From Opitutus sp. GAS368 (GTDB taxonomy: Bacteria > Verrucomicrobiota > Verrucomicrobiia > Opitutales > Opitutaceae): 64,000 nucleotides of DNA. The DNA is taken from assembly GCA_945903465.1 (NCBI GenBank), contig CAMDOF010000014.1:1-64000 (forward strand), read 5' to 3'. Of the stretch, positions 376 to 58,594 are shown in pieces (position 1 is the first letter of the stretch; the number at the start of each line of letters is the position of its first letter). The notes under the pieces are model-generated. The model did no database searches. It saw only the letters and a list, made by a program, of their open reading frames with translations, and was not told the origin of the DNA. A program made the translations under genes and the position numbers.

Positions 376-754
376 GAGGCTGCTAGGAAACTGGATTTGC
401 GGGGGGGGCGGGGTTCTTGGATTCAACGGACGAAACGATCCCAAAACCCAAAGCCTGACTCCGTTGGTTCGTTCCTGACTCCGTTGGTTCGTTCGACACT
501 GTACGTTCCGTCGACCGTGGCGCGGGCTCGGGCGCGCGGCCTGATGATTCAATCCGCAGCATTCTCGGATCAGACCGCGCCGCACGCGCCAGACCGCGCC
601 GCGCGCGGCACCTCCTTAGCAGGCGCTTGCGCGGCAGCGTTCGCCTTGAGATTTTTGGCTGTGTCGGGCACCGAAAGCTTGAGTGCTCGGCCGGGCCCTT
701 GCATTTCAAGTAGCCATCGGGTTCCTGCTGACCCGGTCAATCCTTCATCTTCTG
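376..754. other. Non-coding leader region before first sulfatase
   Basis: No gene is recognised here. It holds the diverged edge of the 125-bp array, a G run near 401-408, and a perfect 20-bp tandem duplication at 455-474 and 475-494. Open frames exist in this stretch but show no protein-like character. The promoter of the downstream sulfatase should lie here, although I cannot point to convincing -35 and -10 boxes. Confidence 0.5.
455..494. repeat. 20-bp perfect tandem duplication
   Basis: The unit CTGACTCCGTTGGTTCGTTC occurs twice head to tail with no spacer (455-474, 475-494). It looks like a recent slippage duplication and has no obvious function. Confidence 0.9.
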
Positions 755-2329
755 ATGATCACGCGCTTGCGCTCCTCTGCTCTCTTTGCTTCGGGTCTGC
801 TCTTCGCTGCCGGCTTCCACTTTGCCGGCGCGGCCGGCCCGCCGCCTCCGAACGTCCTCTTCATTGCCGTCGACGATCTCAACGACTGGATCGGGCCCTT
901 GCGCGGCCATCCGCAGGTGAAGACGCCGAACCTTGACCGGTTGGCCCAGCGCGGCGTCACCTTCACGAATGCCCATTGCGCCGCACCGCTCTGCAACCCT
1001 TCGCGTGCCGCCGTCTTTAGCGGTCATCAACCGTTTACAACCGGCGTGCTCGCGAATGACGAAAAGGCCATCCGCACGGTGCGGCCTGATCTGGTCCTCT
1101 TGCCCCAGCATTTTAAGGCAGCGGGCTATCGCACCTATGGCACGGGGAAACTTCTTCACCAGAAGGGCCGCGGTTTGTGCGATGAGGAGTTTTATCCCGA
1201 GCAGCGCTGGAGTCCGTTTACCGCCGAGGCGACCGCCTACACGGCGGCCGAGCTCCCTTCCAAGGGCACCGATCATCCCCAGCATCATACCGTCCTCCAA
1301 GGGCGCCCGGTGACTTTGCCGCTCAACCGGATGCCGAGCGATCGTGCCGCCACTTCGCCCAACGGCGAATCCTTTGATTGGGGACCGCTCGAGGTGGGCG
1401 ACGCCGACATGGGCGACGGCCAAATCGCCGAGTGGGCCGTGAAGCAAATCCGCCAGCAGCCGACGATGTCGCCGCAACCGTGGTTTCTCGCGGTCGGATT
1501 TTATCGTCCCCATATCCCGCTGTTCGCCCCAAAAAAGTATTTCGACCTCTACGCGGGAATCGACGTCCAGCTTCCCGCGGTCAAAGCCGATGATCTGGTC
1601 GATCTGAGCGACACCGGGCGCGCTTGGGCCCGTGATCCTGTCACGGCGGGCTCGCACGCGGCCGTGGTAAAATACGGGCAGTGGCGAGCGGCCGTTACGG
1701 CGTATCTCGCGTGCGTCTCCTTCATCGACGCGCAGGTCGGTAAACTCCTCGATGCCCTCGACGCCAGTGCCGCCGCCGACAACACCGTGATCGTATTCTG
1801 GGGAGACCACGGCTGGCACCTTGGAGAAAAGGAACACTGGGGCAAGTGGACCGGCTGGCAGCGTGCGACTCACGTGCCGCTCATCGTGGTGCTCCCGCAA
1901 CGGGGCGCCTCCGCGGACTTTCCCCGGGGTGCGACGTGTGCGGCTCCCGTTGGGCTGATCGACCTTTATCCGACCTTGATTAATGTGTGCGGGATCGCCC
2001 CTCGCGCGGGTCTCGCTGGCGAGTCGCTGGCCCCGCTGCTCAAAAACCCGGCGGCCGTCTCGGACCGTGTGATCCTGACGTGTTTTGATGCCGGCAACTA
2101 CTCGGTGACGGGCCCGCGCTGGCGCTACCTCCGGTACGCCGACGGGAACGAGGAGCTCTACGATCTCGTGAATGATCCGCACGAGTGGACGAACCTGGCG
2201 GGCCGGCCCGAGGTGCGTACTGTTCAGCAGGAGATGGCGGCCAAACTACCGGTGGTGGCCCCCGCGATCAACGAGGCGGCGGCACCGGCCAAGTCGGGCC
2301 GGAAAAAAAAGAAATCGGCGAACCTCTGA
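755..2329 (+). CDS. Secreted sulfatase, iduronate-2-sulfatase-like
   Basis: Formylglycine-dependent sulfatase (about 524 residues) predicted to hydrolyse sulfate esters on a glycan outside the cytoplasm. The ATG at 755 gives a clean signal peptide (basic start, hydrophobic core near residues 8-20, AGA-like cleavage near 26); an upstream in-frame ATG at 683 would bury it. The N-terminal metal site is the VDD at 39-41, and the maturation motif C-N-P-S-R starts at Cys80, the residue converted to formylglycine. A later WGDHGWHLGE segment is typical of iduronate-2-sulfatase-like members, as is the opening VLFIAVDDLNDW. The C-terminus is Lys-rich. It converges on the TonB receptor gene and is one of four sulfatases here; no maturase gene is in the window. 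The true substrate is unknown. Confidence 0.9.
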   Translation: MITRLRSSALFASGLLFAAGFHFAGAAGPPPPNVLFIAVDDLNDWIGPLRGHPQVKTPNLDRLAQRGVTFTNAHCAAPLCNPSRAAVFSGHQPFTTGVLANDEKAIRTVRPDLVLLPQHFKAAGYRTYGTGKLLHQKGRGLCDEEFYPEQRWSPFTAEATAYTAAELPSKGTDHPQHHTVLQGRPVTLPLNRMPSDRAATSPNGESFDWGPLEVGDADMGDGQIAEWAVKQIRQQPTMSPQPWFLAVGFYRPHIPLFAPKKYFDLYAGIDVQLPAVKADDLVDLSDTGRAWARDPVTAGSHAAVVKYGQWRAAVTAYLACVSFIDAQVGKLLDALDASAAADNTVIVFWGDHGWHLGEKEHWGKWTGWQRATHVPLIVVLPQRGASADFPRGATCAAPVGLIDLYPTLINVCGIAPRAGLAGESLAPLLKNPAAVSDRVILTCFDAGNYSVTGPRWRYLRYADGNEELYDLVNDPHEWTNLAGRPEVRTVQQEMAAKLPVVAPAINEAAAPAKSGRKKKKSANL

Positions 2330-2448
2330 CCAACCGGGTGCCCGTCCGGCTGGGAACGGGGCGCGGCGCCGCCAGCCGCGACGGCCGGTGGGCCCACGGC
2401 GCCGGGTCAAGGCGGCCGGGGACGGCCTTGGCCGGAAGCCTGTTCGGT

Positions 2449-5400
2449 TTAGAAGTCAAAGCTGCTCGTGAGTAGAAACACGCGTGGCTCGGGATATTGG
2501 AAGACGACCGGTGCGCCCGCGGCGGAGAGTCCGCTCTGGGCGATGAGTTTGTCGTCGTTGAGCACGTTGCGGACGTTGAGCGAGACGTTCCAGCGGACCC
2601 GCTTGGTGAAGAGGGTTGTTGTGTAGCCGAGCACCCCGTCGGTGTTCCAGGAGGATCCGCCCATGATGGGCCGATTTGTATCCGCGATCGCGATACTGGA
2701 TCCCGCGGGGAAGAGCCCGGGGGTGCCGAGGATCGGATCGTTGGCCAGATCAGCGGAGGTAACGGTCTTGTCGCGGTAGCCGAGGATCCGTTCGCCGCGA
2801 TAGCGCATACTGCCGCCCAGGCGGAAGCCTTTCAGCCAGCCGGTCTGAAATCGATAGGTGCTGGTGAAGTTACTGCGCCAGACGACCTCTTGGTTATTGG
2901 CTTGGCCCTCGCTCTCGCGCAGGAACGCCCAGCCGAGCGCGGCGCTGCGGACATAAGCGAGCAGGGTTTCGTTGGGATTGGTTGACGTGTTAAAGTGCAA
3001 CGGGGTGGGGCCGTTGCCGCCGGTGCGTTGCAGAGCGGCGAGGTCATTGGCGGCGGCGAGCCAGTCTTTTATCCGGTAGGCGATCACGCCGAACCAGTCC
3101 CCGGCGATCCGGACGCTCCGAGTATTATTCTTAGCGACGCTGGCGCTCACGCTCCAGCCGCCGAACGGGTTGGCGACGAGCCGGTATTCGACGCCCTTCG
3201 CAATGCGATCGGCCGCATTCGCATACTTGAGGGAGTAGACGGTGCCGGCCGCGCCTTCACTGACCCAGCCGAGCACATCGTTCTGAAAATAAGCCACCGG
3301 GCTGGTGGGATCGATGCCGTTTTTGGTGCCGCCGAGGACGGCGGCGCCCGTGGCGGCGGATTCGTAGCGGCCACCTGATTTGCTGAGCTGGTAGTTTTGA
3401 ACGGATTTCTCGATGTGCACGGCCGTCCAGCGGATATCGTTGCGATCCATGCCGGAGTTTCCTCCGACGGCGGTCGGGTTGGGCACTGCCGGGGAGCCGC
3501 CGGAGATTCCGAGGTAAATGGATTCGTAGGCGTTGACCCGCAGGACGAGTCGGTTCTCGAGGAAACGCAGCGACCCGCCATATTCGCGGGTGGTCCCATC
3601 GTCGAGTTGAGCCTCGCTGCCGCTGGGGGATTTGCGGGTAAAATCTGCGACGAAGGCCGAGGATGATTCCGTGTAGTGCAAGCTGGGGATCGCGTTTTTT
3701 CCGAAAGGATGAATCACGACGCCCTTAAGGCGGGAGGTGACGCCATACTTGGTGGCGGCTTCGAGGGAGTCGAACTCGCCGCCGCGGCTGAGCATGGCAT
3801 CCCATGGTTCGAAGCCGGCGTTCCCGACGGGTTGGCCATTGCCGGGGAAAACGATCGCGGCACCGCTGCGGATGGGCTCCTCGTACTTGCCGGTGGCGGC
3901 GTTGTACCGGCGTGGCAGCCGGCTGTTCGCGCCGCCGCTCTGGCCAACCCACGGAGCGAACGATGCATTGGAAAAACGTTCACCCACGGTGAGGTTGAGC
4001 CGGCCATTGAGGAAACTACTCTGCACCCCATACTGCATCGCGTCCTCCTTCTTCTTGCCGTTTGAGGTCTGGACTTGGGCGCCATACGGACTGCTCATGC
4101 CGGTGTTGATCACGACTTCGCGACCGGCGGCGTCCTGCCCGATCACGCGGGTCTCTGGACTCCAGAGGTTGAAGGGCGCCTGCAGCGAGAAGTGGCCCGT
4201 GCCGCTGTTGTTTTGCGGCGTGTCGAGATAGAAACGCGAGCGGAGCCGGCGCGTATTGCGGATGGTGTCATTGGCGGCGGTGGTCCCCGCGGGATAGACG
4301 ATGCCGTCGAACGTATTGTCGGAAATGATACGGGCATTGTTGTTGTTCTGCTGTACGCGCATGTTGACGCCGCCGGAATACATCACGGCGGCCTGATGGG
4401 AGCCGAGCCAGCGCCAGAAGCCCGGCCGCTTTTCAAAATTGAGGGCGTAGGCGGTTTGGAGCCGGCGCTCCGTCCGGTGATTTCGCCACATGCTGCCCGT
4501 GATATCGTCCTCCACGTAGTATTTGCCGAGATTGGGATTGGGGGTGATGCCGTCCGGGAGAAACCGGTTTAGTTCAACGCGCAGATCAGTGTTGTTGCCA
4601 GAAATGAAACTGAGTGAGCGGGTGTCAAAAACCTCCCGGTTATATCCGCCCTCGATGTAGAGATCGCGCCAAGGGTTCAGTTCGAAGACAAAGCCATGGA
4701 TGTTACTGCGCCAACGACGTTGCATGGCGTTGCCGATGACGCTCTGGTCAAGCGGGTAGATGTTCGGATTGATGATGCTGGGGTCTTGGGTGCCGTCGAG
4801 TGGGCGGCTGGAGGTCACGGTATTGGTCCAGTTGCGAATCGCCGATGGTTGGCTGCCGTTAAGATTGTAGACGACGGTGCCGGCCGAGGCCACGTTGTTG
4901 AAGCGCTCGGCGGATTTTGCCAGATCGGCGCCTTGAGCGTTAAACGCGGTGGTGAACTGCGTCGCCGTACTCGTGGCGTTGAGGCCCGCGTTATTGAAGA
5001 ATGGGCGCGTCGCGGTGCCCAGCCACGGGCTGACCCGATCCGCGACCAAGGTGTTGGCGGCGTTGCGCTGCCGCGAATCGTATTTCTCGATCCAGCCCCG
5101 TAAGGAAGCGCGGGGGGTGGGCTGAAACAGCAGGGCGGTGTAGAGGCGTTCGGTCTTGGCCCCGACGCCGTCGCGATAGTCGCGCTCGTCGGCACGGAGC
5201 CCGGCGATGCGTAGTCCGAGCATCTTGCGCAAGAGTGGCTGGTTCAAGTTCAGCGACGTGCGCAGGCTGCCGTTGGAGTCGGCGCGAATCGTGGCATTGC
5301 CAGAGAATTTCCGGAGGTCGGGCCGGTCGAAAGCGGCGTCGTTGGTGCCACCAGCGAAACCAGCGCCGAAGAGAATGGCATTCGAACCGGAGACGAGCGT

Positions 5401-5901
5401 GAAGCGTTTGCCGGTGTTGTAGCTGTCGAGGGGTACGTTGGTCTCGAAGAAATCGTGCGTGTTGTTAGAGCGGCTCAACCCTCGGGTCTTGCCGCCGTAG
5501 TTGGAGGCAAAGACGCTGTTCGTATTCGGATCCGTGCCGGGCGAAAAGTTCTCCTCGCTCGATTCAATATTCATCGAGTAGCGGAGCGCTTCCTCGAGGG
5601 TGAGGGCTCCGATATCTTCCAGAAATTCGGCGGTCAATACGTCGATCTGGGAAGCGACGTCGCGCAACTCACTTTTTAACCGCGTGCCGCCGAGCGTGCT
5701 GGTGGCGGTGTAACCGACATCCGAACTCGCACTGACCGCGAACGGATTCAGGACAATGGCCTCCTCGGTTGGGGTGGCTCGAGTGGCCGGCGCTGGCGCG
5801 AGCGGAGCTACCTGGGCGTGGGTTGGGCTGCTCAGCAGCGCTGAGGCGATGAGCAGACGGTTGAACAAATAGGCGAAGCCGGGGTGCGGGTGTTGGGTCA
5901 T
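2449..5901 (-). CDS. TonB-dependent outer-membrane receptor
   Basis: Large (1150 residues) outer-membrane beta-barrel receptor expected to import a ligand, probably a glycan fragment given the sulfatases on both sides. A signal peptide ends near the A-Q-V at about residue 30. An acidic TonB-box-like stretch and the NPFAVSASSDVGYTATST segment (about residues 51-68), common in verrucomicrobial receptors, are followed by a plug domain (about 75-210) and then the barrel. The chain ends with Phe (SSFDF), the usual barrel-insertion signal. There is no carboxypeptidase-regulatory-like N-terminal extension and no adjacent SusD gene, so this is not a classic Bacteroidota SusCD pair. It is divergent from the sulfatase at 6093, with about 190 bp between them for promoters. 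Confidence 0.93.
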   Translation of the reverse strand: MTQHPHPGFAYLFNRLLIASALLSSPTHAQVAPLAPAPATRATPTEEAIVLNPFAVSASSDVGYTATSTLGGTRLKSELRDVASQIDVLTAEFLEDIGALTLEEALRYSMNIESSEENFSPGTDPNTNSVFASNYGGKTRGLSRSNNTHDFFETNVPLDSYNTGKRFTLVSGSNAILFGAGFAGGTNDAAFDRPDLRKFSGNATIRADSNGSLRTSLNLNQPLLRKMLGLRIAGLRADERDYRDGVGAKTERLYTALLFQPTPRASLRGWIEKYDSRQRNAANTLVADRVSPWLGTATRPFFNNAGLNATSTATQFTTAFNAQGADLAKSAERFNNVASAGTVVYNLNGSQPSAIRNWTNTVTSSRPLDGTQDPSIINPNIYPLDQSVIGNAMQRRWRSNIHGFVFELNPWRDLYIEGGYNREVFDTRSLSFISGNNTDLRVELNRFLPDGITPNPNLGKYYVEDDITGSMWRNHRTERRLQTAYALNFEKRPGFWRWLGSHQAAVMYSGGVNMRVQQNNNNARIISDNTFDGIVYPAGTTAANDTIRNTRRLRSRFYLDTPQNNSGTGHFSLQAPFNLWSPETRVIGQDAAGREVVINTGMSSPYGAQVQTSNGKKKEDAMQYGVQSSFLNGRLNLTVGERFSNASFAPWVGQSGGANSRLPRRYNAATGKYEEPIRSGAAIVFPGNGQPVGNAGFEPWDAMLSRGGEFDSLEAATKYGVTSRLKGVVIHPFGKNAIPSLHYTESSSAFVADFTRKSPSGSEAQLDDGTTREYGGSLRFLENRLVLRVNAYESIYLGISGGSPAVPNPTAVGGNSGMDRNDIRWTAVHIEKSVQNYQLSKSGGRYESAATGAAVLGGTKNGIDPTSPVAYFQNDVLGWVSEGAAGTVYSLKYANAADRIAKGVEYRLVANPFGGWSVSASVAKNNTRSVRIAGDWFGVIAYRIKDWLAAANDLAALQRTGGNGPTPLHFNTSTNPNETLLAYVRSAALGWAFLRESEGQANNQEVVWRSNFTSTYRFQTGWLKGFRLGGSMRYRGERILGYRDKTVTSADLANDPILGTPGLFPAGSSIAIADTNRPIMGGSSWNTDGVLGYTTTLFTKRVRWNVSLNVRNVLNDDKLIAQSGLSAAGAPVVFQYPEPRVFLLTSSFDF

Positions 5902-6092
5902 CGGAGGTATTGAGAGTGGCTTTGGCTAAGTTGATCCAGCGACCTGATCAAGGATCTTAAACCGTCCGACCGGCGGCCGCTCCGTCTTGGCGGCTGGCGG
6001 TCGCTGCTCGTCCTGTCTCGGCTGGACCCGATCTACCGGGTAATCGTTGACCTTACTTGCCCAGTGCGCGGCGCCCCGTTAGGCGTCTCTGG
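5902..6092. promoter_or_regulatory. Divergent intergenic region, receptor/sulfatase
   Basis: This 191-bp gap separates the start codons of the TonB receptor (minus) and the second sulfatase (plus), so it must carry both promoters. I see no convincing operator or promoter consensus. Coordinate control of receptor and sulfatases from this gap is an inference from orientation only. Confidence 0.4.
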
Positions 6093-7625
6093 ATGCAACC
6101 CCGACTCATCGTAATGCTCGCTGTCGCCTTGACCTGTTTGGCGTGGGGCGCTCACGGCGTTTTGGCGGCGATTCCTGCGAGGCCCAACGTGGTCTACATT
6201 CTCGCGGACGACTTGGGCTACGGCGACGTCCAGGCGCTAAACCCCGCGCGCGGAAAAATTAAAACGCCCCACCTCGATCGGCTCGCTGCCCAGGGCATGA
6301 CGTTCACCGACGCGCATAGCGGTTCATCGGTTTGCACGCCCACGCGCTACGGTTTGCTGACGGGCCGCTATGCTTGGCGCTCGCGTCTGCAAAAGGGTGT
6401 CCTCGATGGCTCGGATGATCCACCGCTCATTGCCCAGGATCGCCTGACCGTTCCTGCGCTGCTGCAACGGCACGGTTACACGACGGCCGCGATCGGCAAA
6501 TGGCATCTCGGTTTTACTTCCGAGCCTCCCCGCCCGACTCCAGCGGCGGCGCCTGGGCCTGCCGCGGCACCTGCGGGAAAATCTAAAATGGGCGAGAAGG
6601 GGCTCCCGGTCGGCACCCGGATCATCGGGGGTCCGGTCACGCGCGGCTTCGATTATTTCTGGGGCTGCTCCAACGCCCGCACGATGGCGGGCCTGATTGA
6701 AAATGACCTTGTGATCGAAAATCTCCCGCCCGTGAAAATGCTTCCTCGCCTCGAGCGGCAGGCGGTCAATTACCTCGCGGCGCACGCCGCCGCCGCGAAA
6801 GGCGGGACCCCGTTTTTTCTTTACGTCCCGCTGACCTCGCCGCACACGCCCATTCTCCCCACGCCAGAGTGGCAGGGGAAAAGCGGTCTCGGCGACTACG
6901 GCGATTTCGTCATGCAGACTGATGCCGTCGTGGGAGCAATTCTCGCCGCACTCGACCAAAACGGCCTGACCGATGACACCCTCGTCATCTTCACCGCCGA
7001 TAACGGCTGCTCGCCGCAAGCCGACACTCCGGGCCTCGAGAAAAAAGGTCATTTTGCCAGTGCCCAGCTCCGCGGCTACAAGGCCGATATTTGGGAGGGT
7101 GGCCATCGCGTGCCTTTCTTGGTGCGCTGGCCGGCGCGGGTCGCCGCGGCCTCGCAAAACGCCCAGCTGATCTGTCACGTCGATCTGCTCGCGACTTGCG
7201 CCGATCTCCTCGGCGTGAGCCTCCCCGCAGATGCCGGCGAAGACAGTGTGAGCATTCTCCCGGCGCTGCTCGGTCGCGGCGGGGCCCCGCGGCGCGACGC
7301 CGTCGTGCATCACTCGATTAACGGGATGTTCTCGATTCGTCAGGGCCCGTGGAAATTGGAATTTTGCCCGGGCTCCGGGGGCTGGGGCGCGCCCGGTGAT
7401 CCCGCCGCCCGCCGAGCCGGCCTAGCGGAAATTCAACTCTACGACCTCAGTCGCGACGTTGCGGAAACCCAAAATCTTCAGGCCGAAAACCCCGCGACCG
7501 TCGCCCAGCTTACCGCGCTGCTCCTTCGTTACGTGGCCGATGGCCGCAGCACTCCCGGCCCCCGCCAACGTAACGACGTTGCGATCGATCTTCTGAAAAC
7601 CAAAGGCGCCGCCTCCCTACCATGA
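6093..7625 (+). CDS. Secreted arylsulfatase-type sulfatase
   Basis: Second formylglycine sulfatase (about 510 residues from the ATG at 6093). The upstream ATG at 6057 would only add 12 Arg-rich residues before the signal peptide, so 6093 is preferred. The hydrophobic signal spans about residues 5-25. Metal-binding ADD is at 38-40 and the maturation motif C-T-P-T-R begins at Cys81. The LGYGD segment following ADD and the GKWHLGF segment are hallmarks of the arylsulfatase A-like branch. An Ala/Pro-rich insertion near residues 148-163 looks like a surface loop. Its stop codon overlaps the start of the next sulfatase (ATGA at 7622-7625), so the two are translationally coupled. Confidence 0.92.
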   Translation: MQPRLIVMLAVALTCLAWGAHGVLAAIPARPNVVYILADDLGYGDVQALNPARGKIKTPHLDRLAAQGMTFTDAHSGSSVCTPTRYGLLTGRYAWRSRLQKGVLDGSDDPPLIAQDRLTVPALLQRHGYTTAAIGKWHLGFTSEPPRPTPAAAPGPAAAPAGKSKMGEKGLPVGTRIIGGPVTRGFDYFWGCSNARTMAGLIENDLVIENLPPVKMLPRLERQAVNYLAAHAAAAKGGTPFFLYVPLTSPHTPILPTPEWQGKSGLGDYGDFVMQTDAVVGAILAALDQNGLTDDTLVIFTADNGCSPQADTPGLEKKGHFASAQLRGYKADIWEGGHRVPFLVRWPARVAAASQNAQLICHVDLLATCADLLGVSLPADAGEDSVSILPALLGRGGAPRRDAVVHHSINGMFSIRQGPWKLEFCPGSGGWGAPGDPAARRAGLAEIQLYDLSRDVAETQNLQAENPATVAQLTALLLRYVADGRSTPGPRQRNDVAIDLLKTKGAASLP

Positions 7626-9076
7626 AACATTTGCTCTCCATTTCGATGCTCCTCCGCCGCGTCCCGGCGGTACTGGTTTTTGCGTCCGGCGCGGCGACTG
7701 CCGCGATTACCGCCACGGCCGCGGGGGTCCAAGCGAAACCCAACATCGTCTTCATTTTTGCCGATGACCAACGCGCCGATACCATCGCGGCCTTGGGCAA
7801 CGCGCAGATCAAAACACCGAACCTCGATCGTCTCGTGCGGCGCGGGGTCGCTTTCAACCGTGCGTATATGATGGGAGGCTTGAACGGCGCGACCTGCGTC
7901 CCCTCGCGGGCGATGTTGCTCTCCGGCCGATCACTTTTTCACATCGACGAAAAACTCACGCGGGATGAGACCTGGCCCGCCGCCTTCGGTCGAGCCGGGT
8001 ACACCACGTTTATTAGCGGCAAATGGCACAACACCCCCGCCGCCGTCCCGCTGAGCTTTCAACGCGCCCGCCAGCTCTTCACCGGCGGTATGACCAACCC
8101 CATGCAGGCCCCGCTCGGCAGTCTGGAAAACGGTAAAATGGGCCCCGCGACCGTCGGCCCGAAACACGCCTGTGAGACGTTCACCGATGAGACGATCGCG
8201 TTTTTGAAGGAGAGCCATTCGGCGCCTTTTTTCGCCTACTTGCCTTTTGATGGACCCCACGATCCCCACATCGTGCCCAATGATTTTCCCGTTCACTACG
8301 ACGCCGCGAAGATTCCCTTACCGGCCAATTTCCTGCCGCAGCATCCGTTCAATAATGGCGAAATGACTATTCGCGACGAACAACTTCTCCCCTGGCCGCG
8401 CACCTCGTTCGATATCCGCACCATGCTCGCCGAGTACTACCGCTACATTTCTTTCCTCGATCTTTTGATCGGCCGGGTGCTCGACGCCGTCGACGCCTCA
8501 CCGCACGCGAAAAATACCTTTGTGGTTTTCGCCGCTGATTCCGGCGTCGCCCGCGGTAGTCACGGTCTCATCGGAAAACAAAATCTCTACGAACACTCCA
8601 TGCGAGTACCCCTGATCATCGCAGGTCCCCGCATCCCTGCCAACCAGACTACTGATGCGATGTGCTACCTCTTCGATGTGCTGCCCACCCTCGGCGCGCT
8701 TGCGGGCATCACCGGTCCTAAAACGAGCGAAGGCATCGATCTCAGCCCTTCGTTGCACCATCCTGCCACGCCCGCCCGCGCGTCGTTGATGTTTGCCTAC
8801 CAGAAGGTCCAGCGCGGCCTCCGCGACGAACGTTTCAAGGTCATCCGCTACCCGCAGGTTGACCGTACCCAGCTCTTCGATCTCCAGGCCGATCCCGATG
8901 AGCGCATCGATCTTTCGAGCCGTCCGGAGCATGCGGCCCGCCTCGCTGCGATGACCACCGTCCTCGCGGCCGAAATGAAGCGCCTCGATGATCCCCAAGT
9001 ACTCATCGTCGCCTCTCCCCAGCCCGCCGCGTGGTCACCACCGGCAAAAAAATCGGCCGCGCCCAATAAAAAATAA
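7622..9076 (+). CDS. Secreted sulfatase, first of a tandem pair
   Basis: Third sulfatase (484 residues) with an N-terminal hydrophobic export signal up to about residue 37. The metal site is FADD followed by QRADTIA (about 46-56), and the formylglycine motif C-V-P-S-R starts at Cys92. The FADDQRADTIA opening and the GKWHN segment match the next gene closely, and both share a late SHGL.GK segment followed by a YEHSMR/FEHSMR motif, so the two are paralogues from a tandem duplication. It overlaps the upstream sulfatase by four bases and is followed after 22 bases by the next one, making a three-gene sulfatase operon. Substrate preference cannot be told from sequence reading alone. Confidence 0.92.
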   Translation: MKHLLSISMLLRRVPAVLVFASGAATAAITATAAGVQAKPNIVFIFADDQRADTIAALGNAQIKTPNLDRLVRRGVAFNRAYMMGGLNGATCVPSRAMLLSGRSLFHIDEKLTRDETWPAAFGRAGYTTFISGKWHNTPAAVPLSFQRARQLFTGGMTNPMQAPLGSLENGKMGPATVGPKHACETFTDETIAFLKESHSAPFFAYLPFDGPHDPHIVPNDFPVHYDAAKIPLPANFLPQHPFNNGEMTIRDEQLLPWPRTSFDIRTMLAEYYRYISFLDLLIGRVLDAVDASPHAKNTFVVFAADSGVARGSHGLIGKQNLYEHSMRVPLIIAGPRIPANQTTDAMCYLFDVLPTLGALAGITGPKTSEGIDLSPSLHHPATPARASLMFAYQKVQRGLRDERFKVIRYPQVDRTQLFDLQADPDERIDLSSRPEHAARLAAMTTVLAAEMKRLDDPQVLIVASPQPAAWSPPAKKSAAPNKK

Positions 9077-9098
9077 AACCCCGCCGCCCGCCCTGTCC

Positions 9099-10607
9099 AT
9101 GAATCGCCTATTTTCTGGCCCACGTTTCCGCGGTGGCCTCATCCGCGCCCTCCTCGCCACCGTGGCCCTTGCCCTCGCCACCACCGCCCTCGCCGCTACC
9201 CACGCGCCGAAGCCCAACGTCCTTTTCCTTTTCGCCGACGATCAGCGGGCCGACACCATTGCGGCCCACGGTAATGCCCACATCAAGACGCCGATCATCG
9301 ACGGCCTCGTGCGCGCGGGTACGAGTTTCCGCAATAACTACGTCTTCGGAGGTAACAGCGGTGCCGTCTGCGTGCCGAGCCGCGCCATGCTGCACTCGGG
9401 CAAGACTTGGTTCGCCATCAACACGGCGACCCTCGCGGGGGAAAAACTCATGCCCGAGCTCTTCGGCGAAAATGGGTACGCCACTTTCGGGACCGGCAAA
9501 TGGCATAACGGCCAACCGTCTTGGCTCCGCGCTTTTCAGCAGGGCGAGCGCATCATGTTCGGCGGCATGTCTGATCATCAGATGGTGCCCGTCCGCGATT
9601 TGGGCCCCGATGGCAAACTCACCGCGCAACGTCTCGGCGAAAAATTTTCCAGTGAGATGTTTGCCGACGCGGCCATCCGTTTTCTCGAGAAACAGGGCGC
9701 CACCACCGACGCGAAGCCGTTCTTCTGTTACATTGCCTTCACCGCCCCTCACGACCCGCGCCAGCCACCCCCGGGCTTCCCCGCCAATTACGCCTCGCGC
9801 CCACCGCTGCCCAAAAATTTTCTCGCACAGCTCCCTTTCGATAACGGTGCGATGAACGGCGGGCGCGATGAAAACCTCGGCGCTTGGCCACGGACCGAAG
9901 CGATGATCCGTGACCAGCTCGCGGAATACTATGCGATGATCGAGCACCTCGATACCCAGATCGGTCGGATCCTCGCGACCCTTAAAGCCCGCGGGCTCGC
10001 CGAAAATACCCTCATCGTCTACGCCGCCGATAACGGCCTCGCCCTCGGTAGCCACGGCCTCCTCGGCAAACAGAGCGTATTTGAACACTCGATGCGCACC
10101 CCGTTCATCATCAGTGGTCCGGGTATTCCCCAGGGTAAGTCGATCCACGCGTTCACCTACCTTTTCGATATTTTCCCCACGCTCTGCGACCTCGCTGGCC
10201 TCACTCCGCCCGCCGGCGTTTTCGGCGAGAGCGTCCGGCCGCTCTGGACCGGCGCCAAATCCAGTCTTCGCGACACCGTTTTCCTCCCCTACATCCAAAT
10301 CCAACGCGCCGTGCGTGATGAGCGTTGGAAACTCATCCGCTACCCCAAGCTCGGCTTCAGCCAGCTCTTCGATCTCCAAAACGATCCCAACGAAACCCAA
10401 AGCGTCTACGCAGACCCCGCCCGCGCGGCCGACATCGCGCGCCTCACCGCCGCGCTCCAAGCGTGGCAACTCAAGGTAGGGGATACGCTGGTCACCAATA
10501 CGGGGAGCAACCCGCCGCCCAAGATCGATCTCACTGGCAAAAAGCGGGATCCCGACCAGTGGCAGCCCGATTGGATCGTTAAAAAATACTTTCGCGACAA
10601 TCAATGA
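9099..10607 (+). CDS. Secreted sulfatase, second of a tandem pair
   Basis: Fourth sulfatase (about 502 residues). The ATG at 9099 starts a typical signal peptide (Arg-containing n-region, Leu/Ala-rich core about 15-33). An in-frame ATG at 8988 lies inside the preceding gene and is rejected. The metal site is FADDQ (about 45-49) and the formylglycine motif C-V-P-S-R begins at Cys91. Co-linear similarity to the 7622 gene over the whole length indicates a duplicated pair, though the two have clearly diverged. It is the last gene of the plus-strand operon and converges on the gene ending at 10745. Confidence 0.92.
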   Translation: MNRLFSGPRFRGGLIRALLATVALALATTALAATHAPKPNVLFLFADDQRADTIAAHGNAHIKTPIIDGLVRAGTSFRNNYVFGGNSGAVCVPSRAMLHSGKTWFAINTATLAGEKLMPELFGENGYATFGTGKWHNGQPSWLRAFQQGERIMFGGMSDHQMVPVRDLGPDGKLTAQRLGEKFSSEMFADAAIRFLEKQGATTDAKPFFCYIAFTAPHDPRQPPPGFPANYASRPPLPKNFLAQLPFDNGAMNGGRDENLGAWPRTEAMIRDQLAEYYAMIEHLDTQIGRILATLKARGLAENTLIVYAADNGLALGSHGLLGKQSVFEHSMRTPFIISGPGIPQGKSIHAFTYLFDIFPTLCDLAGLTPPAGVFGESVRPLWTGAKSSLRDTVFLPYIQIQRAVRDERWKLIRYPKLGFSQLFDLQNDPNETQSVYADPARAADIARLTAALQAWQLKVGDTLVTNTGSNPPPKIDLTGKKRDPDQWQPDWIVKKYFRDNQ

Positions 10608-56008: not shown

Positions 56009-57283
56009 TTACCGCGGTGCGGGCGGCGGCGTCGCAGGGTCGAGCAGGCTGGCGGCCGGACTCGCCACATGCGGAGCAACCGAGCACAGCCCAGCTGCTA
56101 AAATGACGGTCAGAATAAAGCAGGCAATCGAGACGTAACTGAGCATCGGTAATCCCGCTAACTGACCCTCCGGCGTGCGCGTCACGAAGAAGCCGGCGGT
56201 CAGGCACACACCGGCCGTGGCCGCCTGTTGCAGGGCAGCGTGCACGCTCATAAAGCCGCCGCGGTGGCGTGCCCCGACGGCATTCGTGATCATCGTCATC
56301 ACCGGAGAAAATCGGCCCGACATCGTAACCATAAATAACGCCATCATCAGCGACGCGAAGGTCAGTGAGGCGGGTCCCATCCGGGTGATGACGAGCACCG
56401 CGATCACGGCCCCCACCGACATGATCATGAGTAACTTCAACCGGTTCATGTGGTCACTCAGCCAGCCGATGAGCGGGGTCGTCAGCGCGGTCGTCAACCC
56501 TCCGACCATGTAAGTAATCGGCAGTTGAATTTTCTCATCGAGGCCGACGTTCGCGATGAAGGCAGGCGCGATAAAAGGGATGAGTAAGCCGCCGGCCATC
56601 ACGAGCACGGCGCCGAGTGCAAGGGCCCGCTGGTACACGTGGTCGGTGAGGATTTCGCGCATTTGCCGCAGCGGTTGATGGCGGCTGACCGCCGTCTCGA
56701 TTGGCGGCAAGACGAGGGCCGCCAGGGCGAGCGCCCCAGCGGTGCAACCGCTGAGAAGAAAGAAGGGGGCGTGCCAGCCAGATTTGCCCGCAAGCACGAG
56801 CCCGATCGGTACGCCGAGCACCGAGGCGAGTGGAAACGCGGTCATCACCAAGCTCATGGCACGGCCTCGGCGGGCCGGTGGAATAATATCGCCGACCATC
56901 GCGTTTACGAGGGAGCCGGTGAGACCGCCGAAGGCCCCGGCGGCAATCCGCGCCAGCAGTAATGCATGATGGCTTGGCGCCAAGGCACAGGCAAGGGTCG
57001 CCAGTCCAAAGCCCGCGTAAAGCCAGACGAGCGCCCGTTTGCGATCAAAGCGGTCGAGCACGAACCCCCCCGCCAATCCACTTACTGCGGCCGATAACCC
57101 ATACGCGGCGACGAGATGGGCAAACTGGGCCGGGCTGATTGCAAATACGCTCATCAGTTGCGCCCCCAGCGGCATGATAATCATGAAATCAAGGATGTGC
57201 GTGAACTGCAGCGCTCCCAATGTGAGAAGCGTGGCGCGTTCCCGCCTGGGGGAGAGCGCATGATGGTGTCCACGGTGCGGCAT
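56009..57283 (-). CDS. MFS (DHA1-type) transporter
   Basis: A 424-residue proton-driven transporter with about 12 membrane helices. The cytoplasmic loop GGFVLDRFDRKRALVW after helix 2 and the equivalent central WLSDHMNRLKLLM loop are the paired MFS motifs. The overall look is AraJ/YdhP-like efflux (sugar or drug export). Hydrophilic His-rich N- (MPHRGHHHALS) and Pro-rich C-terminal ends. It follows the LysR gene by 40 bp, so the regulator may control it. Substrate unknown. Confidence 0.88.
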   Translation of the reverse strand: MPHRGHHHALSPRRERATLLTLGALQFTHILDFMIIMPLGAQLMSVFAISPAQFAHLVAAYGLSAAVSGLAGGFVLDRFDRKRALVWLYAGFGLATLACALAPSHHALLLARIAAGAFGGLTGSLVNAMVGDIIPPARRGRAMSLVMTAFPLASVLGVPIGLVLAGKSGWHAPFFLLSGCTAGALALAALVLPPIETAVSRHQPLRQMREILTDHVYQRALALGAVLVMAGGLLIPFIAPAFIANVGLDEKIQLPITYMVGGLTTALTTPLIGWLSDHMNRLKLLMIMSVGAVIAVLVITRMGPASLTFASLMMALFMVTMSGRFSPVMTMITNAVGARHRGGFMSVHAALQQAATAGVCLTAGFFVTRTPEGQLAGLPMLSYVSIACFILTVILAAGLCSVAPHVASPAASLLDPATPPPAPR

Positions 57284-57323: not shown

Positions 57324-58235
57324 TCAGCGGGTAGCGTGGGTCATTAACTCTTCCCGCGTGCGGACATGCTCGCGCAGAACGGAGATAAATTGCTCAGCCC
57401 CTCGGCTTTGGTAGCGCTGCAGGTGCCGAATGATCGCGAGTTCTCGGGTAGGTGCGGTTCCACTCAGCCGGAGATAAGTCAGCGTCTCGCGGTCCGCGGG
57501 CAACCGGGCGAGTTGGGGTAAAATCGAAATGCCCAGCCCTGCCGCCACCCAAAGTTTGAGCGTCGCGATCTGCGCACAATGAAAACCAATCCGCGGTTGC
57601 AACTTTTGGTCGCCAAAGAAGCTCCGAATTTGCGTCGCGAGCGCGCTGGCGTCCCCCAACGATGCGAAGCTTTCCCCAGCGACGTCGTTCAGATTAATTT
57701 CCGCGCGGGCCGCAATCGGATGGTCTTTCCCCACCACTAACAACAGCGGTTCCGTCATCAGCGGCTCAACGGAAATCCGATGCTCCTTCACGGGCAATGG
57801 GACAATCGCAAGGTCGAGGTCGCCTTCGACGACGCCGCGCACGAGGTTCGCGCGGAAATCTTCCCGCGCATCAATCAGCAAATTCGGATGCGTGGTGTGC
57901 AGTTCCGCAATCAAAGGTGTCAAAAGGTACGGCATGACGGTCTGCACCGCGCCAACCGTGATTCGCCTCCCCAAATTAGGGTGATCGCCGAGCTCCTTGG
58001 CTGCGTTTTCGACTTCGAAAAGGATCCTCCGCGCTCGCTCCCGAAAGGCGACGCCGGCCTCCGTTAAAACGGCCTTGCGGCCCAGCCGATGAAAAAGCTT
58101 ATGACCAACCTCATTTTCCAAATTCAAAATCTGTTGACTTAAAGAGGGTTGGGATACGTTAGAACGTTCCGCCGCCCGTGTAAAATTTCCAGTCTCGGCC
58201 ACCGCCGCAAAGTACCGCAGTTGGGTTAATTCCAT
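57324..58235 (-). CDS. OxyR-like LysR regulator without redox cysteines
   Basis: A 303-residue LysR-type transcription factor: N-terminal winged HTH (about 1-60, with FTRAAERSNVSQPSLSQQI), then an effector domain. Overall it most resembles OxyR. OxyR senses peroxide with two cysteines (E. coli C199 and C208); here the matching stretch reads GDASALATQIRSFFGD, with neither. The only Cys in the protein is in GFHCAQIAT, at a position occupied by an Arg-rich strand in E. coli OxyR. It is therefore probably a ligand-responsive or constitutive relative. An OxyR-type operator overlaps its own start codon, pointing to autoregulation. Operonic with the MFS gene. Confidence 0.85.
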   Translation of the reverse strand: MELTQLRYFAAVAETGNFTRAAERSNVSQPSLSQQILNLENEVGHKLFHRLGRKAVLTEAGVAFRERARRILFEVENAAKELGDHPNLGRRITVGAVQTVMPYLLTPLIAELHTTHPNLLIDAREDFRANLVRGVVEGDLDLAIVPLPVKEHRISVEPLMTEPLLLVVGKDHPIAARAEINLNDVAGESFASLGDASALATQIRSFFGDQKLQPRIGFHCAQIATLKLWVAAGLGISILPQLARLPADRETLTYLRLSGTAPTRELAIIRHLQRYQSRGAEQFISVLREHVRTREELMTHATR

Positions 58236-58270
58236 AGTTTAAAACTATCAAATAGATAGGAAGGTTCGAT
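58234..58270. promoter_or_regulatory. OxyR-type operator, ATAG-N7-CTAT repeated
   Basis: Four elements with exact 7-base spacing: ATAG (58234), CTAT (58245), ATAG (58256) and CGAT (58267). This matches the known OxyR consensus ATAG-N7-CTAT-N7-ATAG-N7-CTAT at 15 of 16 defined positions; the last block has one substitution. The first half is a perfect palindrome around a central A. The site overlaps the LysR start codon and lies roughly -71 to -35 relative to a start site predicted for the divergent small gene (about 58305), a placement suited to activation there and repression of the regulator. Confidence 0.8.
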
Positions 58271-58298
58271 TTCAACTATCATAATTTTGAGGTATACT
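58271..58298 (+). promoter_or_regulatory. Candidate promoter of small membrane-protein gene
   Basis: TTCAAC (58271-58276), 16-base spacer, TATACT (58293-58298). The -10 is good; the -35 is poor, as expected for an activator-dependent promoter. It follows the OxyR-type operator directly. Confidence 0.5.
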
Positions 58299-58324
58299 GC
58301 GTCTCGTTGAATCAAGTCGATTCG

Positions 58325-58534
58325 ATGAAAAGCTATAAATCTATGAATAAGTATAATCGTTCAGTGTTTCTCGCGGTCCTTGGCCTCCTCATTGCGGGTG
58401 CGGCGATCGCCCTTTCTTTCCGTGCCTCCGTTAATGCCGAGTCCTTGATTGGCTACGTCAGCGTGTTCGCCATGCTTTGCGTCGCCGCTTTGGAATATCG
58501 GATTACTTGGAAGCGGCTCTTGGGCCGGGGTTAA
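58325..58534 (+). CDS. Small two-helix membrane protein
   Basis: About 69 residues from the ATG at 58325. A TTG at 58307 and another ATG at 58343 are alternative starts. Two hydrophobic helices (about 14-32 and 39-57 of the 69-residue form) separated by a short FRASVNAE loop, with a basic C-terminal end (ITWKRLLGRG). I do not recognise a family. It stands alone between a divergent LysR gene with a shared operator and a strong terminator, so it is a single-gene unit probably controlled by that regulator. Confidence 0.7.
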   Translation: MKSYKSMNKYNRSVFLAVLGLLIAGAAIALSFRASVNAESLIGYVSVFAMLCVAALEYRITWKRLLGRG

Positions 58535-58560: not shown

Positions 58561-58594
58561 GGGGCCCGGATTAATTTCCGGGCCCCTTTTTTTT
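58561..58594 (+). terminator. Intrinsic terminator of small membrane-protein gene
   Basis: GGGGCCCGGA and TCCGGGCCCC form a perfect 10-bp GC-rich stem with a 6-base loop, followed by eight T residues. It ends the transcript of the small gene, 27 bp after its stop codon. Confidence 0.95.

Follow-up and report, generated by a model that had tools for sequence, protein, structure and literature searches.

An OxyR-descended regulator without the peroxidatic cysteine and a divergent small membrane protein form a predicted two-gene module in the Opitutaceae

OxyR of Escherichia coli is a LysR-type protein that controls a regulon, with OxyR-type half-sites before its gene and a short transcript, oxyS, running divergently from it. 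Other LysR regulators bind effectors near the position that T129 occupies in OxyR. The hydrogen peroxide site of OxyR is formed by C199, T129, T100, P99 and residue 147 (excerpted text of PMC7038661), and His198 is described as critical for Cys199 in the excerpt of PMC8289212. In Deinococcus radiodurans the one-cysteine OxyR DR0615 has a single C210, with Thr201 at the missing cysteine; C210 senses peroxide and DR0615 activates katE (excerpted text of PMC2225504). By their spacing, C210 and Thr201 are taken here as the C208 and C199 positions of E. coli OxyR. LsrB/VtlR of the Rhizobiales is a second LysR factor beside OxyR, and the genes activated by VtlR encode small proteins and an sRNA (excerpts of PMC11975290 and PMC7486931).

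The protein considered here is a LysR-type regulator of 303 aa encoded at 57324-58235 on the minus strand of the window (the whole stretch of 64,000 nucleotides analysed, from Opitutus sp. GAS368). Like E. coli OxyR, it is a LysR protein with OxyR-type half-sites before its gene and a short predicted transcript diverging from it. Pfam domains HTH_1 (PF00126) and LysR_substrate (PF03466) both scored above their cut-offs, and identity to E. coli OxyR is 36% over residues 1-269 of the window protein. Its AlphaFold2 model has a mean pLDDT of 93.8, and the closest PDB match, by sequence and fold alike, is Pseudomonas aeruginosa OxyR (4x6g). Against the NCBIfam OxyR equivalog (NF008361) the regulator scored 154.6 bits, below the cut-off of 329. 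No NCBIfam family exceeded its cut-off among the best 25 of the 55 matched, within which the top scores were to CynR, GltC, CidR, HcaR and OxyR.

Residues were compared in an 82-row alignment referenced to E. coli K-12 OxyR (L080, taken from the genome record): C199 is replaced by A198 and C208 by F207. In further contrast to E. coli OxyR, T129 is replaced by R128 and H198 by S197. The sole cysteine, C220, aligns with E. coli A221, which rules out its lying at a redox position and bears out the original prediction of a single cysteine outside the C199 and C208 positions. The window protein has neither a peroxidatic C199 in an H198/T129 pocket nor a resolving C208. As these defining cysteines are missing, it is not filed here as an OxyR, despite its OxyR operator and its grouping with OxyR.

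A total of 115 genomes were searched, the window's own included; one best match was taken per genome and the loci were then fetched. Eleven loci with identical proteins were dropped before counting, and L003, L004, L035 and L037 were also excluded. L065, truncated upstream, was left out of pairing and operator counts, and L101, a partial protein, was scored as a gap in most residue tallies. Of the 73 genomes from the window's family (Opitutaceae), 60 have a clade regulator, with identities to the window protein ranging from 86% down to 39%. A record search added twelve further distinct clade members, and nine distinct paralogs among the fetched loci retain C199.

Across 72 clade proteins the C199 position holds T (30), S (26) or A (15), with one gap, and Cys in 0/71. 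The C208 position holds F (44), C (23) or L (4), again with one gap. T129 is replaced by R in 67/72 proteins and H198 by S in 70/72, whilst R264 (E. coli R266) is kept in 71/71 and the T99 position is T in 62 and S in 10. Judged from these residues, the peroxide pocket of the clade regulators is largely dismantled, with R264 and T99 retained. Moreover, C220 is present in 70 of the 71 members with data (L059 has V) and H271 is invariant (71/71). C220 is the only cysteine in 8/71 members, the window's included; two further members either have a single cysteine elsewhere or are partial proteins. In the secondary structure of the regulator model R128 begins a helix, at a point that we take to lie at the interdomain cleft. 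Part of the clade resembles DR0615 at the C199 and C208 positions, as that protein appears in the excerpted source; the window protein differs from it, lacking the C208-position cysteine too and having C220 instead. Given the Deinococcus one-cysteine precedent, the 23/71 members with a cysteine at the C208 position may remain redox-active.

A maximum-likelihood tree of 72 rows, in which 36 of the 72 clade rows were included, placed all 36 on one branch (support 99/94) among C199-bearing rows, in keeping with common descent with OxyR. The sister of the clade was the pair L077/L141 (93/91, not starred). The outgroup did not fall on one side of a branch, four of its rows being placed next to E. 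coli OxyR, and long branches join one another; the deep rooting is therefore unsure. Because the surrounding rows share C199, we infer that it was lost in the clade. C199-bearing OxyR relatives from the same order (L070-L072, L074-L079, L134-L145, L148 and L150) share the tree with the clade. In the nine checked the recognition-helix stretch is identical, QPSLSQQI being the majority sequence in the clade and in these nine paralogs alike. In contrast to the clade, these relatives all possess C199. Among the nine paralogs, T129, H198 and C199 are present in 9/9 and C208 in 8/9, and the C220 position is S, G or T. Divergent neighbours of the C199-bearing rows include a catalase at L070, L071 and L072 and a peroxiredoxin at L077.

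The operator is a predicted site at 58234-58270 on the plus strand, reading ATAG-N7-CTAT-N7-ATAG-N7-CgAT. It agrees with the OxyR consensus, ATAG-N7-CTAT-N7-ATAG-N7-CTAT, in 15 of its 16 positions, with all spacers exactly N7. Its half-sites (ATAG 58234-58237, CTAT 58245-58248, ATAG 58256-58259 and CGAT 58267-58270) follow an 11-bp period, and the first overlaps the regulator ATG (58233-58235, minus strand). No other operator match was found in the window at up to three mismatches, where 0.01 were expected (mean of 100 shuffles). The original prediction of an OxyR-type operator with this spacing over the start codon therefore stands, as the single match in the window. The site is also kept in the clade. 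When half-sites were read on the divergent strand at fixed offsets from the regulator ATG, the mean score was 14.07/16 (n=71), whereas 11 shifted registers gave 1.25-5.59. Conservation is poorest in the fourth half-site, which is exact in 3/71 members and matches at 3 of 4 bases in 62/71; 68/71 have CGAT or another variant. CTATGG is found at the regulator start codon in 61/71. In two outliers of the 71, L046 and L050 (in-register score 6/16), the operator is displaced upstream of the ATG, so the site need not overlap the start codon. A chance motif was ruled out by the in-register conservation and by the genomic positions of the 12-base core described below.

The nine C199-bearing paralogs scored a mean of 10.33/16 (range 4-14), which suggests that the operator is only partly shared with them. 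By eye, several further C199-bearing relatives show the operator layout over the start codon. Both a C199-bearing paralog and a cysteine-less regulator were seen in one genome in L072/L007 (G013), L073/L006 (G025), L075/L012 (G006) and L076/L011 (G008). With a common recognition-helix stretch and partly similar operators within one genome, cross-talk is possible.

Divergent from the regulator, at 58343-58534 on the plus strand, lies an ORF for a small membrane protein of 63 aa with two predicted transmembrane helices. A small ORF of this family was found beside the regulator at 71/71 clade loci with upstream DNA, as against 0/9 C199-bearing paralogs. The HMM behind these counts took five clade ORFs as its seed and was iterated on those loci. 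With script-chosen starts, the 71 ORFs are 56-97 codons long and begin 86-205 bases from the regulator start. Hydropathy gave two membrane segments in 65/71 small proteins, the window's among them, and one in 6/71; the structure model is modest, with two helices and a mean pLDDT of 71.8. The dN/dS of the window's small ORF against 24 same-genus members was 0.14-0.54. Over 1989 pairs the median was 0.56, with some distant pairs above 1 and near saturation. The original prediction had taken the locus for a one-off and overlooked the divergent small ORF. Also unnoticed in that first reading were the predicted promoter of the small ORF, a fifth CTAT at its -35, a leader hairpin and a terminator.

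The promoter, predicted from sequence at 58271-58298 on the plus strand, has a -35 of TTCAAC (58271-58276), a 16-nt spacer and a -10 of TATACT (58293-58298). The fifth CTAT (58276-58279, plus strand) overlaps this -35. CTAT is found at the fifth-half-site offset in 55/71 members, with TTTCAAC overlapping its first base in 50/71. A -10-like hexamer was found in 67/71 by a permissive test (at least 4 of 6 bases, best of 7 offsets, without a shuffled control). A leader hairpin is predicted at 58304-58328 (plus strand; 10-bp stem, 5-nt loop). Three of the 71 leaders fell outside the length limits, leaving 68 for the fold and stem tests. The best stem was at least 4 bp in 64/68 (without a shuffled control), and the median fold z against shuffles was -2.1, with 39/68 below -2 and 3 above 0. 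The 5′ arm of the best stem takes 61 distinct forms among the 68 leaders, though arm length varies too. Consensus folding of 36 hand-picked leaders from the 71 gave 4 pairs, 3 of them with changes on both sides, and little gain. An intrinsic terminator, recognisable by its GC stem and run of T, follows the small ORF at 58561-58594 (plus strand), and a hairpin with a T run was detected no more than 120 nt beyond the small ORF in 64/71 members. The divergent transcript had no Rfam match at the gathering score; three weak matches overlap the terminator.

When 384 genomes of the class were searched with a profile, the small-protein family turned up in 26, all from the window's family, and 26 of the 27 places adjoin a clade regulator. 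A weaker small-protein match, L133 (G392:C14:79050-79226), has no regulator within the fetched stretch. The search missed the small ORFs of G045 and G065, which are known from the locus set, so it is not exhaustive and its negatives are not firm. No Pfam or NCBIfam match of the small protein exceeded a cut-off where cut-offs were shown. Weak NCBIfam matches, listed with no cut-offs, had a lowest E of 0.0019, seen in one of the 23 members, and the PDB gave one match (E 0.27). Among the open-licence papers listed, neither the clade nor its small membrane protein was found described, and the small membrane protein family is apparently undescribed. Taken together, gene content points to the regulator and the small membrane protein as a conserved two-gene module, with the small protein as the likely target of the regulator.

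The window's 8.16 Mb genome has a single exact copy of the 12-base core formed by the first three half-sites, a difference from E. coli OxyR and its regulon. With one mismatch allowed there are 5 places, 2 of which are this site, against 5 in the control, and a second weak site may exist. Across 69 genomes, exact cores were found at 29 places in 27 genomes, compared to 9 for a reversed-pattern control. Of these 29 places, 22 are at clade regulator starts. The other seven comprise a C199-bearing paralog start (G030), a place upstream of another LysR gene (G031) and five elsewhere (G080, G044 and three in G033). Within the genus the exact core occurs in 16 of 27 genomes, once each and always at the regulator, with none exact in the other 11; this pattern points to one target. 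An outgroup-placed LysR protein, L151 (G031:C1, core 6390303-6390328), has an exact ATAG-N7-CTAT-N7-ATAG just upstream of its start, and another, L146 (G071), was judged by eye to have the same core upstream of its start.

The window's genome (93% complete, 343 contigs) was also searched for a second, cysteine-containing OxyR, a check put forward with the original prediction. None was found, which at this completeness does not prove absence. Five LysR matches were recovered, by the regulator query and by the OxyR profile alike: the regulator itself and four others, all without the OxyR cysteine pair. KatG-type peroxidase matches are present in this genome, and PF00199 catalase gave no match in it. 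Elsewhere in the window, translations show a run of several sulfatase-like ORFs at 683-10607, adjoining a large TonB-receptor-like ORF (2449-5901, minus strand).

The regulator seems to retain the OxyR DNA site yet to lack the chemistry by which OxyR detects peroxide. We favour, at a probability of roughly 70%, a single-operon regulatory module that would have descended from OxyR through loss of peroxide chemistry. A tetramer on the four half-sites would cover the regulator start and repress the regulator's own gene, and through the half-site against the -35 it would bring RNA polymerase to the small-protein promoter. The trigger would be something other than a C199-C208 disulphide, most likely a small and probably anionic ligand in the rebuilt cleft (R128, S197 and the invariant H271), and less likely a modification of C220. 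A ligand is favoured because conservation of R128, S197 and H271 roughly equals that of C220. The output would be a message of about 290 nt for an orphan two-helix membrane protein. The original prediction had proposed recognition of OxyR-class DNA in response to a different signal, a reading that the comparison favours and partly supports. The DNA part gains from the operator being kept in the clade and from QPSLSQQI being the majority stretch in C199-bearing paralogs as well. For the different signal, the absence of C199 from all 71 proteins and the replacement of most T129 and H198 residues argue in favour, but the conserved C220 would allow a thiol sensor.

Such a sensor, with C220 as a new thiol responding to oxidants, nitric oxide, sulfane sulfur or a metal, is a doubtful but serious competitor. 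C220 is found in 70/71 members where the nine C199-bearing paralogs have S, G or T, it is the sole cysteine in 8/71 members, and H271 is invariant. There are also precedents in one-cysteine DrOxyR (excerpted text of PMC2225504) and in the reported S-nitrosylation of AphB. However, L059 keeps the module with V at this position, the residues of the C199 pocket are gone and C220 does not replace C199, and an invariant residue may equally be structural or ligand-binding. It is improbable that the protein is instead a locked OxyR, which, having no C199, would repress or activate constitutively and independently of any signal. C199S OxyR of E. coli has an extended footprint with two separated groove pairs, but the 11-bp array of four half-sites fits the compact layout of oxidised OxyR (both from excerpted text of PMC2881104). 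Whilst a genus genome has at most one exact core, in line with a locked protein, near-invariance of R128, S197, C220 and H271 down to 39% identity would be unexpected if there were no signal.

Two further explanations concern the target rather than the trigger. The divergent transcript could be a small RNA like OxyS, its ORF being secondary or dual-function, since its divergent placement matches that of oxyS relative to E. coli oxyR, a leader hairpin is found in most members and the terminator would yield a short transcript. Conservation at the protein level, with the ORF family at 71/71 loci and the low dN/dS within the genus (0.14-0.54), together with the lack of an Rfam match at the gathering score, makes this quite unlikely. 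The other candidate target is an MFS transporter (56009-57283, Pfam MFS_1), which lies on the minus strand, the same as the regulator, 40 bp downstream of it. Its best NCBIfam match is a myxochelin exporter (270 bits, below the cut-off of 525), so the regulator might chiefly control local drug or siderophore export. Among the 69 clade loci for which 200 nt or more of downstream DNA was available, only 38 have a same-strand MFS gene after the regulator, as against 71/71 for the small ORF. As a core partner the transporter was ruled out by this count and is regarded as an optional neighbour, and its being the chief target is very improbable indeed.

The single-operon module thus remains the preferred reading. 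There is perhaps an even chance that, within the Opitutaceae, an OxyR lineage shed peroxide sensing once, rebuilt the pocket (R128, S197, C220 and H271) to suit a different signal and came to serve solely as a small-protein switch. Compared to oxyS in E. coli, the divergent product in the window is, from its sequence, a conserved membrane protein, and the same-order relatives with C199 have no such ORF in the nine checked. LsrB/VtlR is alike, by description, in being a second LysR factor with small-protein targets; unlike the clade regulator, it affects many genes and has cysteines C144 and C273 (excerpts of PMC11975290 and PMC7486931).

For annotation the lesson is one of caution: peroxide sensing should not be assumed on the sole ground that an OxyR-like protein is accompanied by an OxyR site. 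The clade offers a natural experiment on a well-studied redox switch, whose input may change whilst its DNA code stays, with paralogs that have and lack the cysteines, sometimes in one genome, sharing a recognition helix and in part an operator. A small membrane protein family gains a clear candidate regulator, and operator and regulator together provide handles on its function. If this reading is true, the Opitutaceae would possess a new class of sensor that works through an old operator and drives a new small-protein effector.
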